DNA from: Polychytrium aggregatum
Taxonomy: Eukaryota > Chytridiomycota > Chytridiomycetes > Polychytriales
Assembly (NCBI RefSeq): GCF_025602895.1
Contig: NW_026516392.1
Coordinates: forward strand, 1-62,831
DNA length: 62,831 nucleotides
Reading direction: 5' to 3'
The position numbers and the translations under genes are program-made. Below are positions 7,796 to 14,615 of this stretch, one piece after another; position 1 is the first letter of the stretch, and each line of letters starts with the position of its first letter. Below the pieces are notes generated by a model. That model was not told the origin of the DNA. It saw nothing but the letters and a program-made list of their open reading frames with translations, and searched no databases.

Positions 7796-8460
7796 TGGGG
7801 CAACGCATACTGTCTGACGAGTTTGACTGCTTGACAACGCCTTCACTAGACCGGAAGCAGCCGTCGAGCCCAGCTTGTCCGTGGCAATCGCTGTGCCTGG
7901 CAGATTTGCAATACCACTCGACCAGGCAGGTCACATCGTTGCGAGCTCTGCTTGCATCACAGCCATCTGCTGCAACAATCGCAGACCTGAAGCCCGAGGA
8001 CTTGCGTGCTGCATTGTCTCCGCCGTGAGATTGTCTCCAGTCTTGGTTGTCAATCAAAGTGGGCTTGGAGGAGTGCATTCGGTAAACTGTTGGATATACT
8101 AGAAACACGAGAAGCTTACCGTGAGATATGCCTTCATCGGCCTGTGGGCCGATCTGGAGCCGATCGTGCATGACTTGTGGGCACTGGATGAATGGCAAAT
8201 AGCACCGAAACCGGCCCTGAAAGGACGGTGCGTTGAATCGAGACGGCGAAGCATTGCACTTCGGACAAGTTCGCGGCGTAGCTGTTCCGTATCATGCACT
8301 CGGCTGAGAACCACCAAGTGTGTCCATCGCTTCCTTGGGCGTCCGGCCCGCAGAGACAGTCCAAGACTCCGATACCTCTGCGGTCGATCTCATCGGTCGA
8401 GTCCATCACAACCGTGAGAGAACAGATCGGCAGCGTTGGGCCAGACGGTCAGTCAAGTGC
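7796..8460. other. region with only weak coding signal
   Basis: About 660 bp between the HAD gene and the transposon. The only suggestive feature is a minus-strand exon-like block at 8281-8120, listed separately. Confidence 0.4.
8120..8281 (-). CDS. possible exon with CxxC pair, unidentified
   Basis: A minus-strand open segment bounded by a plausible acceptor (AG at 8283-8282) and the donor GTAAGC at 8119. It would encode 'TCPKCNASPSRF...' then 'RCYLPFIQC', i.e. four cysteines in a possible zinc ribbon. Flanking exons could not be assembled, so it may be a remnant or chance. No family is recognised. Confidence 0.2.
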
Positions 8461-8465
8461 GTCCC

Positions 8466-8476
8466 GATTGACTATA
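8466..8476 (+). repeat. 11-bp direct repeat outside left end
   Basis: GATTGACTATA, identical and in the same orientation as 12100-12110. It directly follows 'gtccc', also found before the right copy. Confidence 0.65.
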
Positions 8477-8488
8477 CACTTTATTCAG

Positions 8489-8502
8489 AAAAAAACGGGA
8501 CA
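8489..8502 (+). repeat. left terminal inverted repeat
   Basis: AAAAAAACGGGACA; its last 13 bases are the exact reverse complement of 12083-12095. Confidence 0.7.
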
Positions 8503-8574
8503 ATATAGCCGTTTCCATGAACAGGTAGTATGTGCTGTGCTTGCGTCAAGCAAAGCCACAAGAAATAAAACAGA
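8489..8574 (-). ncRNA. predicted omega/fRNA 3' scaffold region of the Fanzor
   Basis: The 86 bp between the Fanzor stop codon and the inverted repeat. In TnpB and Fanzor systems the guide RNA scaffold comes from the 3' end of the ORF and the adjoining element end, and the guide is the flanking DNA just outside. By that rule the guide would start at 8488 reading leftwards on the minus strand. This is placement by analogy; no structure was computed. Confidence 0.35.
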
Positions 8575-10947
8575 TCACTTTGGCAGCCTCCGAGTGAAGA
8601 CCGCCGGTCGCTCTCCGATCTCCACAATCGACCTGCACACTATGATCATGTTGCGCGCCGCATTGACATCGCGATTCCACACTGTCCGGCAGCTGGGATT
8701 CTTGCAGCTCCTGACAAAGTGGGAATTCGCAACACTGGGCGCATCGAGTCCTTCCAACCGAACCGGCTCCAGGCACTTGGAGCACACTTGCGAGGTGTTG
8801 AACTCGTTCGTCGAGACTACCTTGACGCTTCCATGATGGTGATTGGGCCGGCGTCGGTGGTGCTCGAACTGCTCAAAGTACTGAGCGAACCGCTGCCTCC
8901 GAGGGCTGGATGCATAGCCCTTGCCCTGTCGCCATGACGCATTGCCAAAGGCGATCACCACATCGGTCCGTATCGGGGCGTGCTTCAGGACGGCCTTGCA
9001 CATCCTGTCGACGGCCACTTGGCGTCTCCTGCGGCCTGTGAATCGATGGTGACGGGCCTTCTTGCCAAGGTGGAAGTCGAGCTGCACTCGCAGCTCCGGT
9101 CGCAGGACATGGGTGAGATGAACCTTGAAGGCCTCCGAGGACTGCACCTTGGGCGAGGGAGTGGTCGACATCCAGGTCTCGATGCTGAGTCGATACTTCA
9201 TGGTGTTGTGCCACTTGGTGTTGGACGTATGGCCACACATTTGCTGGTAGTGACCATTGGAGAACGAGACCACCTCGTCTTGGTGGCCCGGTGCTTGGAT
9301 GACCGCCGTGAAGATGGAGCCGACTCCAGGATCGATGCCAATCCAAGTGGTGCGATCGGGGTCTGGGTCGCCGATGTGGGCCTGGATGCGCTGCTCGGCA
9401 GTCTTGACGGGTGTGGTGGTCTCGGTGTGATCGGTTCGAGGCAGAAACTTGACGAGACCGATGGTGCATCCAATGCCATCGGTGCTGATCTCGTAGTTGA
9501 ACAGCTTCTTGTCCCTGACCCGCTCTTGGAAGAGGGAACTACGCAGCTTGAAGCAACTGCGCCAGAGACGATCCTGGTTGTTGATGCCGTCCTCACCTTC
9601 TTCCTTGAGCTTGTCCCAGGTGAGGCCAAGACGATGTTCGGTGTCAAGGAGTTGCCAGAGAGTGACCGTGTCAATCTTGACATACTTGGCCTTCGCAGTA
9701 CATAGAGGAACTATCGTGCACACGGCCGGAGGAGTGTCGACGGCGAGCTACTTGAGAGCCCAGTTGAGCCTGGATGCCAGCTTGTTGATCTTGGCCTTGG
9801 TGGTGCCGAGCTCAGACTTGGCCGTGGTGAACCTCTTGTCGTCGGAGGGAATGCCTTGGGTAGTGAGCTTGTCCAGCTTGGCCTGGCGCTGCAGCTCGGT
9901 GACTCGGAGGGCGGGCATGTCACAGTCGATCCACTTGTGGACATTGTCGACCATCTTGTCTCGGGCGAGGATTCTCACATGGTGTGAGAGGCGATGGAGG
10001 GCCCGGAAGCGGTCCTGGTCGCTGCTGTACCGAAACTCGTCCAGGACGTGGCCAAAGTCCGGGTAGAGGAACTCGAGATCGGCCTTGGGTGGAGTCTGCC
10101 CTGGTTTCTCGAAGAGCTCGAGACAGGCCTCGATGGCTTCGTGCTTGTGCTTGTTGGCAGGGAAGACGGCAGCGCAGAAGCGGCGAAGGAGTCGCCAGTA
10201 GGCCAGGTCGAGGTGGGTGGTGCAGTTGGTGGCATAGGCATTGACAGCCAGGGTGAGAAGCTGACTGTGAGCACCATCAGGCAGACGAGGGGCCGGAGGC
10301 AGGTCTGCGTGCCGAGTGGTCTGGTAGTCGCGAAAGGAAGCGACCAGATGCTCGTTGTACTGCTCGATGTCCCCGGTCGGCGAGAGGGCATCGGCCTCGA
10401 CAATCGTGAAGCATTGGCGAACGAAAGCAGGGGTGGACTTGGAGATGACGGGGACGGGAAGATCCTGCTCGATGCACCGGAGGATGTGCAGGTTGAGCAG
10501 CCTGGATGCCTCGAACTGGATCTGGGTCATGGCCTCGACGGTGGCCTGGATCTTGTCGCGGAGAGCGGGATTGAGACAACAGCCATCCATCGTCTGCTTG
10601 AAGCAGCTGAACTGAGGGGCGGATGACCTTCCATCCACGAGTGGGACGACAGAGCTCTTGAGGGGCCGGTATTTGGGACATTTGCTGGTGTTGCTTCGCT
10701 CGTGATCGGTACCGTCGCACTTGGGACATCGCTTGCCGGTACTCGAGGAAGTAGATGGACCAGGCTCGGTGGGATCGACATCCATTGGATCTGCAGAAGC
10801 AGTGGTGGTGAGCGACGGAGCAACAGACGAACAAGCATGCGTGGGATCAGAATACGAACCAGAGACAGGCTCCGACTGTGACTTGGCTTTCTTGGGCCTG
10901 GGTGGCCGAGGCTGGCCATCACCGGTACCCTTACGCTTCGGAGGCAT
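8575..10947 (-). CDS. Fanzor (TnpB-like RNA-guided nuclease), one in-frame TAG
   Basis: One minus-strand frame of 790 codons broken only by TAG at codon 400 (9750-9748). The N-terminal half starts with a basic nuclear-signal-like block 'MPPKRKGTG...RPKKAK' and has a Cys/His knuckle 'CPKCDGTDHE'. After the stop comes 'KAKYVKIDTVTL', typical of Fanzor just ahead of the RuvC fold. RuvC-I is 'WIGIDPGVGS' (Asp, codon 539). The RuvC-II strand 'VVIAFGNASW' lacks Glu, but the relocated Glu of Fanzors is present in 'STNEFNTSQVCSKC' (codon 715). The zinc ribbon is CSKC...CKNPSC, and RuvC-III is 'NRDVNAARNM' (Asp, codon 760). Catalysis is expected to be RNA-guided DNA cleavage. No phase-preserving intron removing the TAG was found by eye, so it is readthrough, mutation or sequencing error. 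Confidence 0.87.
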
Positions 10948-11197
10948 GGGGGCAGAGGATGCTGGATGCCTGCCAGTGGTACTGGTCAGAGCAGAGACTT
11001 TTTTTTATCGTACAATAGCGCGATGATCAGATCAAGGCGAGATGAAGGAAGAAAGCAGCAGGACGAAGGTGTGGCATTTATACCCGAGAGCAGGAACCCG
11101 TCTGCGCGGGCTGGTTGGGGAAGTGACCTGTTCAAAAATCGCCGAGAGGTTCAAGCCAGGGATGTGAACGTGAAAATGGCGGCGTGATTGGAGGGAC
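10948..11197. promoter_or_regulatory. probable Fanzor upstream region
   Basis: 250 bp between the Fanzor ATG and the transposase remnant. It holds a T8 run at about 10990 and no ORF of note; presumably the promoter reading leftwards. Confidence 0.4.
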
Positions 11198-11250
11198 AAC
11201 CCCAAATCGGTGGGGACTCAACCCCAAATCGGTGGGGACTCAACCCCAAA
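11198..11250 (+). repeat. 22-bp tandem repeat at the transposase break
   Basis: Two full copies of 'aaccccaaatcggtggggactc' plus a 9-bp partial third. It sits exactly where the transposase C-terminus is lost. Confidence 0.9.
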
Positions 11251-12024
11251 GAAGTTCTCGATGGGATTGAAGTCGGGCGAGGCAGGTGGGGTGAAGATCA
11301 CTGACCATCCTCGGCGCTCGATGCAGTCCAGGACAGCCATTGTCTTGTGCATGCTGACATTGTCCATCACAATCACAGAGTCGTCTGGGAAGGTCGCTCG
11401 CTCAAAGAACTCGACCATCGAGTGTGTCTTGAATGATGTGGGGATGTACATGCGATGCAGCACACCAGAGTGGTTGATGGCAAATGCAGCCGAGACAGAC
11501 TTGTGTTTCATGTGATTGCGCTGGCGAAGCGGAGCACCCTTCGGTGAGTACCCGTAAAGAGGGAAAATGGATTTCCTGATCCCCGTCTCATCGACAAAAA
11601 CGAATCGCCACGGGTCGATGGAACGGGTCTCGTCCCTGAACTGTGCCACTCGCTCATCCAGTCGCTTGGACTTGTAGAGGTGTGTTGCCCTCTTGTGTGA
11701 GAGACCTGCTCGGTGGATGGCAGTGTGGCAGAGTGAGAGTGATACTTTCCTCTGGAGGATGGACTCGAGCTTGCATCGCAACACAGGACCAGTCTGGAAC
11801 GGGTCCTGTTCAATCAGGGTGCGAATGACTGGACATGCCTGCTCGAAGAAAGTGGATCTGCGAGCTGGGACCCGGGATGGGTCATCCAGCTTGCATCCTC
11901 AGTGCCATCGATGGATGGTGCTCTTGGACACACTGAATATGGAGGCGACCTTACGCAGGCTATGGATGAGGGCGTAGCATCGCAATGCGGCGGTGCGAAA
12001 GTCGGATGTGTGGCGAATGGTCAT
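11218..12024 (-). pseudogene. Tc1/mariner (DD34E) transposase, degraded
   Basis: A single minus-strand frame from ATG 12024, interrupted by TGA at 11901-11899. Codons before the stop encode an N-terminal helix-turn-helix with 'VASIFSVSKSTIHRW'. The catalytic triad is intact: Asp in 'FVFVDETG', Asp in 'VIVMDNVSMHK', and Glu 35 residues later in 'PDFNPIENFF', i.e. DD34E as in Tc1. The protein stops making sense just after 'IENFFG', where a 22-bp tandem repeat takes over, so the C-terminal tail is missing. With a nonsense codon and a lost tail it is probably non-functional. Cut-and-paste DNA transposition at TA is the family reaction. Confidence 0.88.
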
Positions 12025-12082
12025 GGCCAGCGCGCGATAACATTGGGTAACAAAATATTCGATGAATGGTCAAAAACCCGGG

Positions 12083-12095
12083 TGTCCCGTTTTTT
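12083..12095 (+). repeat. right terminal inverted repeat
   Basis: TGTCCCGTTTTTT, exact reverse complement of 8490-8502. Confidence 0.7.
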
Positions 12096-12099
12096 ATTG

Positions 12100-12110
12100 G
12101 ATTGACTATA
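12100..12110 (+). repeat. 11-bp direct repeat outside right end
   Basis: GATTGACTATA, second copy of 8466-8476. Candidate target duplication or remnant of a terminal repeat. Confidence 0.65.
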
Positions 12111-12534
12111 AACATTCACAAGGTTTCGGCAAACACCACCGTTCCATGCTGGAGAGTAGATCTATGCCGTTCCCACACATGCGCCGATCCTTTCTGCGGA
12201 TGCCTTCTGCTGCTCCTTCGATGGCCATGGCCCACCACAGGACACTGCTGCCTGTGTCTCCAATATACGGCAGAGGGAGCCCTCGGCGTGTTTGTTCCAG
12301 GCCCTAGTTGTTTGGCACAGGGTGATTCGTCCTGCCGACCTTCCGGGTGTAACGGAATCGGCAGCCCACAAGGTTGATGGCGATTGCTGGGGTACATATT
12401 GCAGGCCGGCAAAGACCCAGCCGGCACTACCGACCGTCGTCAACCCCACAGCCAAGGACACCAGCGCCTGCACACTACATACCCGACATCGATTTGCCTG
12501 CCTGTCTCGGTTCCCACGCTTACATCCGCTCACG
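12111..12534. other. intergenic, transposon edge to chitin deacetylase
   Basis: About 420 bp with no supported gene; upstream region of the deacetylase. Confidence 0.45.
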
Positions 12535-14615
12535 ATGGTTCTATTTGCATCTTCGATGCGCAAGTACCCTGTCTCCTTGGCCATAGCATGGGCACTGGCG
12601 CTCGAGTCTGTCCTGGCCCAGGAAGGAACAGTAAGTGACCATCTGCCGATGTAGATGACGCTAATCCGCCCAGGGCCAACCGATTCTGAACACTGACGGT
12701 CTTGAAACGTCCACCCCAGGGCACGGCTGTCGCAGGCACCAACCCGAACTATTCGTGCGATCCGACTGTCTGTGTCCTACCAAAGTGCTATTGTGCCAAC
12801 GGCAGCCCCCCAGGCGGTCTCAGTCCCAGGTCAATCCCCCAGTTCATAACACTGAGTAAGGTCGCCGACGATGCCACCGATGGCGGCGTGTGCTTGCGCT
12901 GATCGCTCTTGGGTATTGCTCAGTTTATAGCAACCGTGGGTATCTCATTCTTCAACACTTGCCTCTCTGTACCGCATCCACAACCCAACCGGTTTGTGGT
13001 CCAACAAGCCTTTGACGATGCGGTGGACTCGGTCTTGGAGCCTGTAATCCAAAGCATGATCGACGGCCCCCTCAACCCCAACGGCTGCCCAATCTCCTCC
13101 ACGTTCTTTGTTTCAACCCAATGGAACGACTACTGGGCCGTTCAGCGTCTCTACAGCAAGGGACATGAGATTGCCACCCACACCATGAACCACATCGGTA
13201 GGGCTGCGATCGGTTTCTGAGTTGTCCTGTGCTGTACCATCAAGTGCCAGAGTGCCAGAGTGCCAGAGTGCCAGAGCCTCAGTCCACGACCCGCATGGGA
13301 TGCTGACGACGGCATTTCGTGCCGACAACAGGCAGCCCGCCCATCGAGGAGATTGTCGGGGCACAGACGGCTCTAAATCGATATGCGGGAGTTCCAAAGT
13401 CCAAGCTCCTGGGGTTCCGCCATCCATATCTCCTCTATTCGACGCAGTCGTTCCAGAACCTGGCCTCGGCCGGGACCTTCCTTTACGAGTCGTCCATGTC
13501 CATGGATGGAAGCATCAATCTCTGGCCGTGAGTGACTATCGCTCGGGAGCGTCTTGCGAGATCGGCATCGACCTATTCTCATTGCGGATCCTGCTTCGAT
13601 TCGGCCGTCATCGCCCTCCACTTGGAACAGCCTCTCCATTGTCCGCCCATCTCACCTGCTTGTCGCCATTCTGGGGGGCTTCGTTTGCTTGCTCGCACAC
13701 TTGGCCCTCGATAGGTACACTCTCGACAACGGCCCGGCCATCTCGTGCGTCACCGGCGACTGCAGCGGCAACTTCAAGTTCCCGGGGCTCTGGTCGCTTC
13801 CGATGGCCAACCTGAACAACCAGGACGGCTCCATCAACACCTCGATGGACCCGATGGCCAACAGTACCTCCCCGCTCACCAGCGACGAGATCCTGGCTCT
13901 GCTGCAGTACAACTTCCTGAGCCACTACAACGGCCAGCGCACGCCGATGGGGCTGTTCATCCATGCGACTCCAGCCCTGCCTGCGATCGAGCCCCAGCGG
14001 CTGGTTGCCTACGTCGCCTTCATCCAGTGGACGCTCCAGAACTACCCAGATGTCTACTGGATCAACAACCAGCAGCTTCTGGCCTGGATGCAGAGCCCAT
14101 CCGACATTGCGGGGTCGCTCAAGAACCCCGCTCTTGGCTGCTTGTTCCCGGCCCGTGACCCTTCCAATGTCGAAATATGTGATGGCATCGACAACAAAGG
14201 CGACGGCAATATCGACGTAGGCCTGGTCGAGTCGTGCCAGTATCCGGATCAGAATGCATACTTTTCGTCGTGCTTTGGCTGCCCGTCAAAGGCCCCGAAC
14301 GTCTCGGACGCCAATCCTGCGACCAGCAGCACTCGTTTCCCGATCCCCGATGCCGGCTGTCCCAACGCAGGAACCTGGGATCCTGTTGCGGGCCAGTGCG
14401 TCAGCCTCGCTCGGCCCATCATCGTCCGGGCTGCCGTCAGCACCTCTCCGGGATCGGGCAACAGCAGCAGTGCCCCGGGATCGGGCAGCAGCAGCAGCAG
14501 TGGGTCCTCCAAGGGAGCTTCGACGACGGCCAAGAGCGGGGCTGCCAAGATACCAACAGGTCTGGTAGCGATTGCGATGGCCGTCCTGGGCCATCTGCTC
14601 CTCGTGGGATGTTGA
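12535..14615 (+). CDS. GPI-anchored chitin/polysaccharide deacetylase-like (CE4) with MopE-type motif
   Basis: Five exons (12535-12630, 12720-12855, 13009-13197, 13332-13527, 13715-14615) join in phase to 505 residues. An N-terminal signal peptide ('SLAIAWALALESVLAQ') leads to a Cys-rich stretch 'CDPTVCVLPKCYC'. The CE4 catalytic motif 'ITLTFDDAVD' is formed across the second intron and the metal-binding motif is 'HEIATHTMNH'. Near residue 360 is 'EICDGIDNKGDGNIDVG', matching the copper/metal-binding MopE motif. A Ser/Gly-rich linker and terminal hydrophobic segment predict GPI anchoring. Likely acts on cell-wall chitin at the surface. Activity is uncertain, since fungal CE4-like proteins include inactive ones. 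Confidence 0.87.
13244..13280 (+). repeat. 10-bp tandem repeat in deacetylase intron 3
   Basis: Four copies of 'agtgccagag' in the intron between the third and fourth exons. Confidence 0.85.

Follow-up and report, generated by a model that had tools for sequence, protein, structure and literature searches.

The TnpB proteins of IS200/IS605 and IS607 elements are nucleases with a RuvC domain and a zinc ribbon, and their guide RNA comes from the end of the element. Fanzor1-carrying Mariner elements have been known since 2013, when PGv-1 and PUl-1 were described as encoding a Fanzor1 together with a Mariner-like transposase and SPu-1 was described with putative TA duplications (Bao and Jurka 2013, PMC3627910). 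By the account of Saito et al. 2023, no transposase lies within the Spu-1 repeats, and help in trans is discussed (PMC10432273). We examined a stretch of 62,831 nucleotides from the chytrid Polychytrium aggregatum (contig NW_026516392.1; the whole stretch is hereafter the window), in which a Tc1/mariner-type element carries a transposase gene towards its 5' end and a Fanzor1 gene towards its 3' end. The first-pass annotation of this DNA had proposed an independent Fanzor-mariner unit; the Tc1-type carriage of a Fanzor holds, and given the descriptions of PGv-1 and PUl-1 such a unit is not a new kind (PMC3627910). The P. aggregatum family itself was unreported in full-text literature searches, most subscription papers lying outside their coverage.

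We favour, with moderate confidence, the reading that the window holds a dead copy of a large Fanzor1-carrying Tc1/mariner family, and that the sequence flanking the element reflects Fanzor-aided retention through a target-adjacent motif (TAM) of the form WTTA, with W being A or T. Its starting points can be read directly from the DNA, namely the element ends and their TA, the gene order, the active-site residues in open frames, the hundreds of genomic matches, the deletion derivatives and a T found on one side of the insertions.

Element ends and copies in the genome

Comparison with 39 sibling loci of the same genome fixed the entire element at 8477..12108 (minus strand). A TA target duplication flanks it on the Fanzor-downstream, or guide, side (8475..8476; TA in 33/34 distinct copies) and on the Fanzor-upstream side (12109..12110; TA in 34/34). 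Distinct sets are those from which the same-flank duplicates L027, L042, L043 and L045 were removed. The copy L036, with a truncated 5' end, was left out of every copy count; L033, whose end was unmatched by the pattern, was left out of flank counts and kept in the 40-copy frame table, and L049 (308 bp) was handled separately. The span first proposed, 8489..12095, proved 12-13 bp too short at its ends. The exact 13-bp inverted repeat noted with it is real (8490-8502 / 12083-12095) and constitutes only the inner part of imperfect terminal repeats of ~27 bp; it lies within 20-nt arms that are 85% complementary, and the ends of sibling copies match these inner repeats. The 5' terminal inverted repeat occupies 12082..12108 (minus strand) and has, by sibling comparison, a diverged outer half; the 3' repeat occupies 8477..8503 (minus strand) and includes AATAAA (8480-8485) in the Fanzor sense. 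The two repeats are unequal, differing in their outer 13 bp.

The first genome search, in which 40 of 1223 candidates were scored, returned at least 62 matching stretches, 28 of them at ≥3.5 kb and ≥95% identity, with the window itself excluded. Genome searches allowing up to 3 mismatches hit a Fanzor-core word 248 times, the 3' end together with its TA 261 times and a 5'-end word 543 times, the surplus of the last coming partly from sibling families; reversed-pattern controls gave 0 each. Overall identity between copies was 95-96%. A pattern search of viral contigs hit 46 stretches, none of which encoded a relative.

It was also noted that the 5' end of the window copy reads TAGTCAATCC, and that most siblings carry CAGGCAATCC or CAGGCGATCC-like ends. 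Both in the window (8466-8476, 12100-12110) and in L025, the outermost 9-10 bp at the 5' end were unlike the family and matched the host flank of the opposite side, which possibly reflects repair or conversion between neighbouring ends.

The Fanzor1 and transposase genes

The Fanzor1 gene comprises 790 codons and a stop (8575..10947, minus strand). Its length and Fanzor identity agree with the earlier description, which gave it as a frame of 790 codons; in the window copy it is not open, being broken by a TAG at codon 400 (9748-9750). Of the 38 copies that could be read as far as codon 400, 34 have Q there and 4 have the stop. The frame was open in 29/40 aligned copies, 28 with 790 codons and one with 789. 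The ratio of nonsynonymous to synonymous substitution rates (dN/dS) was 0.32 between 27 distinct open copies, a value that, like the one given below for the transposase, takes in changes predating the amplification and possible gene conversion.

Profile searches placed the frame inside Fanzor/TnpB, with a C-terminal TnpB/Cas12f-type zinc domain at E 2.4e-10. A five-sequence profile, built from the window protein and four database homologs, matched the solved Fanzor1 proteins of Spizellomyces punctatus, Parasitella and Guillardia at E 1.8e-32, 2.1e-27 and 4.6e-20; the C-terminal half by itself barely reached SpuFz1 (E 0.098). A DPG motif, an alternative RuvC glutamate and a TDG motif are described as Fanzor1 hallmarks (PMC10711439), and a zinc finger with RD as a Fanzor1 motif (PMC3627910). 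We compared these residues across the 28 full-length open frames, omitting the 789-codon frame. The DPG at the first RuvC aspartate (D539-P540-G541) was invariant in 5 aligned proteins and 28/28 frames, the WED-domain TDG (T489-D490-G491) was present, and the alternative glutamate (Ealt) was assigned by alignment position to E715 in NEFNTS, ahead of C722. The C4 zinc finger and subsequent RD (C722, C725, C748, R759, D760) were invariant in the five-protein alignment, and these residues plus C753 were kept in 28/28 frames (PF07282 E 1.7e-9). D539, E715, D760, the TDG and the zinc cysteines were therefore conserved in all 28 frames compared. Judged by its sequence, the 790-codon protein bears every hallmark tested and is a Fanzor1. 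A TATAAA at 11077..11082 (minus strand), ~130 bp upstream of the Fanzor ATG, was recognized from the letters and is possibly the gene's own promoter.

The transposase is a pseudogene in the window copy (11218..12024, minus strand; ATG 12022-12024), with its frame broken after 41 codons and its DDE_3 part open at 11218-11784 (Pfam E 7.4e-22). This confirms the DD34E remnant of the first-pass annotation, with the spacing measured on L047, in which D145, D221 and E256 form the triad with 34 residues between the last two (DDE_3 E 1.7e-23). A complete transposase is absent from the window copy, where the C-terminus has been swapped for a short tail and a 22-bp tandem duplication (11197..11240) lies at the truncated end; the longer C-terminus was present in L044, L045, L047 and L048. 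Frames with the full C-terminus were found in 3/40 aligned copies, namely L044 and L045 (267 codons), which are a same-flank pair with an internal deletion, and L047 (310 codons), the only copy of the 40 with a 310-aa transposase plus an open Fanzor. Because 39 of these 40 copies were chosen as the nearest to the window copy, the figure may not hold family-wide. Between 36 distinct copies, transposase dN/dS was 0.24, and the best-scoring database transposase (P0012) was 35% identical to that of this family. With a DD34E triad, a TA duplication and terminal inverted repeats all present in its sequence, the element belongs to Tc1/mariner (IS630).

A one-sided flank and the predicted TAM

The base before the upstream TA, read in the Fanzor sense, was T in 33/34 distinct copies, compared with 5/34 for the mirror base on the guide side (Fisher p 1e-12). 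Across exact 5' ends genome-wide, it was T in 210/220 and another base in 10. Position -4 was A or T in 56/72 flanks (p 5e-8); since 38 of these 72 came from ends chosen by their third base (L079 and L094 being skipped), this set is informative for -4 only.

One copy, L018, is inserted in a host repeat, and its empty site could be read from element-free paralogs, of which 38 were listed as spanning the junction and 6 were fetched. All 6 read TTGTTA + 5 bases + ATGAG, with one TA and the length expected of a plain TA duplication. At L018, the sole insertion with readable empty sites, the flanking T is therefore host DNA.

Fanzor and ghost loci of S. punctatus alike are described as carrying a conserved CA upstream of the 5' repeat, and the TAM measured in that system is CATA (PMC10432273). 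Because the conserved flank there equals the measured TAM, we predict by analogy that the Fanzor TAM of the P. aggregatum family is 5'-(W)TTA; in the window the predicted motif is 5'-TTTA at 12109..12112 (minus strand), and the family consensus is 5'-WTTA. The pattern TACAGTYDATCC was tried as a control family, T being present at 123 of its ends and absent from 40, and was rejected; by coordinates it sits at the 3' terminus of another Fanzor family of this genome (see below), and as many of its matches adjoin one repeat, the 123/40 ratio is no control.

The predicted guide-RNA region

The 3' end of the element is predicted to yield an omega RNA, that is, a structured RNA that would include the inverted repeat and continue into host DNA. 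The predicted scaffold (8475..8620, minus strand) joins the end of the Fanzor gene, the 3' noncoding stretch, the inverted repeat and the TA. The fold of 8474-8620 (147 nt) reached -46.1 kcal/mol (z -2.68, with 1/200 shuffles as good) and uses the inverted repeat in a stem; shorter cuts folded less well, at z -1.85 and -0.93. A noncoding block at 8525..8564 (minus strand) is kept across diverged sibling families: when two sequences from this family were compared with three relatives, all five agreed at 26/40 positions of the block, against 10/50 of the remaining positions. Published Fanzor1 right-end element RNAs (reRNAs) are described as holding the repeat and the target-site duplication within the scaffold and extending ~15 nt past the duplication (PMC10711439). 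By analogy with these reRNAs for its length, the predicted native guide is the host DNA adjoining the TA at 8455..8474 (minus strand).

The AATAAA of the 3' repeat might set the RNA end slightly into host DNA, a weak suggestion given that the corresponding site in three relatives carries GATTAA, AATACA or no comparable sequence. By eye, stems were invariant or broken in the relatives, a covariation picture that supports neither side. The sole match in an Rfam scan of 8300-12300 was Xist_exon4 (E 0.8), far below the gathering score, and was taken as chance. The first-pass view that guide RNA, protein and element ends could all be read at this one locus needs correcting: both genes are dead here, the ends had been misplaced and the guide RNA is a prediction.

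Deletion derivatives and duplicated insertions

We read through 13 shortened copies, in which ~96-104, 206 or 662 nt from the 5' end are fused to 165, 214 or 447 nt from the 3' end. None of the 13 has less than 165 nt at its 3' end, whereas as little as 96 nt is left at the 5' end, which fits a need for the guide-RNA region without being proof of it. The ~1.1-kb copies were considered as a Fanzor-free transposase control and rejected, being internal deletions (662|3267) that retain the 3' end (five read).

Several insertions occur twice with the same flanks. The window insertion has a second same-flank occurrence at C124:256364 to ~C124:259980, and further pairs are L026/L027, L032/L042, L021/L043 and L044/L045. 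This suggests separately assembled haplotypes or duplicated segments. At least three such duplicates have flanks about one full element apart, meaning that they are filled, and no empty one was observed; very recent movement is therefore not indicated.

Proposed retention by the Fanzor and competing explanations

Under the favoured reading, the transposase would excise the element at the TA and reinsert it elsewhere. At its 3' end, transcription of the Fanzor gene would run past the inverted repeat and the TA into host sequence and so yield an omega RNA with the host flank as its guide, and the site rejoined after excision would present (W)TTA followed by the guide sequence. The Fanzor would then read WTTA as its TAM and cut the emptied site, and repair from a filled copy would restore the element. 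The one-sided T would be accounted for by the gradual loss of insertions that lack a TTA flank and so go unrescued. Deletion derivatives, which retain the 3' end, could be supplied in trans, as with the 'ghost' loci of S. punctatus. More tentatively, and with a little less than even confidence, we regard the flanks as a natural record of the TAM, with the Fanzor refilling emptied Tc1 donor sites and the derivatives persisting by still making omega RNA.

Several observations weigh against retention by the Fanzor. We found no transposase relative free of both the Fanzor and the 3' region, so a target preference of the transposase could give the same flank bias. The second empty site, that of L028, lay inside tandem repeats and was unreadable, leaving one usable insertion. 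The signal is not clearly family-specific, as T was present in 10/15 sibling-family 5' ends read by eye, several of them ambiguous, and a 308-bp derivative represented by a same-flank pair (L092, L094) was without the T. Low synonymous diversity was considered as a footprint of the guide RNA (third positions, 0.019 in the last 50 Fanzor codons and 0.076 before them) and rejected; this 50-codon segment ranked 26/741, and because equally low segments occur elsewhere, the low diversity does not independently prove an RNA in that part of the gene. Our guess is that mosaic copies cause it.

The main rival to the TAM interpretation is that the one-sided T (WTTA) reflects the choice of target by the transposase, with the Fanzor a passenger that has no role in retention; we think this doubtful, yet it carries considerable weight. 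It gains from the presence of the T in internally deleted derivatives, where paired derivatives among the ends listed had it in 9/9 of those under 450 bp and 4/4 of those of ~1.1 kb, from the same leaning in sibling families, and from the inequality of the two inverted repeats. A Tc1 transposase is expected to treat the palindromic TA evenly, and the other side of the TA has no matching bias, both of which count against a target preference. The retention of the 3' end in 13/13 derivatives does so as well and keeps an effect of the Fanzor in trans compatible with the data, and the comparable flank of S. punctatus is described as the measured TAM (PMC10432273).

It is unlikely, in our estimate, that the family is simply decayed, with both Fanzor and transposase non-working and the open frames persisting through the youth of the copies alone. 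The window copy is indeed dead in both genes, the full-C-terminus transposase is confined to 3/40 copies, of which two, internally deleted, make up a single same-flank pair, and the duplicates give no indication of very recent movement. Decay sits poorly with the 29/40 open Fanzor frames, the Fanzor dN/dS of 0.32, the active-site residues kept in 28/28 and the presence of both long frames in L047. That the conserved T is part of the element end and not host DNA, which would make the flank uninformative on the TAM, is very improbable: its ~95% conservation equals the 95-96% overall identity of copies, but 6/6 element-free copies of the L018 repeat keep both the base and the length.

Neighbouring and other loci

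A second Fanzor family was noted in the same genome (contigs C5, C24, C68, C79 and others), with at least 150 matches (150 of 1104 candidates scored). More than 20 of the matches listed lie in stop-to-stop frames of ~880-1011 aa, and its 3' end, by coordinates, reads TGTCCCGTTTCTTTCTGGATAGACTG adjoining TA. A high-copy repeat with the terminus GACACTATGAAAAAATTTCTTGTTAA (L051-L056; L018 flank) was found in several places a few hundred bp from copies of this second family. Two annotated P. aggregatum genes, P0003 and P0006 (contigs C375 and C279), join Fanzor C-terminal pieces to host domains, which may be gene-model error or exonisation. In the window, a putative polysaccharide deacetylase gene lies at ~12540-13220 on the plus strand (PF01522 E 5.2e-6 on 12909-13217), its likely start ~450 bp past the element.

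Comparison with known systems

P. aggregatum combines a transposase and a Fanzor1 in one unit with graded deletions and many copies, so that the predicted TAM and guides can be read from the genome, and retention by RNA-guided cutting is thereby directly testable in this organism. If the reading is true, a DDE cut-and-paste transposon would have RNA-guided homing in one organism, with the transposase in the same unit.

The family resembles IS630/Tc1/mariner elements in its DD34E triad, DDE_3 domain, TA target and inverted repeats, and differs from them in its Fanzor cargo. It is unlike the TnpB of IS200/IS605 and IS607 in having a DDE carrier in a eukaryote, and its nuclease has the DPG and alternative RuvC glutamate found in Fanzors. 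By their description, PGv-1 and PUl-1 (PMC3627910) are likewise Mariner-type elements with a transposase, a Fanzor1 and TA duplications; PGv-1 is described with an extra GIY-YIG nuclease and as a single copy in a virus, whereas the P. aggregatum family resides in a chytrid with hundreds of matches. The likeness to SPu-1/SpuFz1 (PMC3627910, PMC10432273), as far as these accounts describe it, extends to a chytrid host, a Fanzor1, a TA duplication, inverted repeats (30-33 bp in SPu-1), conserved bases ahead of the 5' repeat, and numerous 'ghost' relatives that lack a Fanzor but retain the 3' end, for which the parent is visible in P. aggregatum. The two differ in that SPu-1 measures 2.1 kb, with no transposase found between its repeats in the published account, and the P. 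aggregatum unit measures 3.6-3.7 kb, with a DD34E transposase before the Fanzor; in the length of the protein, 633 aa for SpuFz1 and 790 aa here; and in the flank, which is CA-TA in S. punctatus and (W)T-TA in P. aggregatum.

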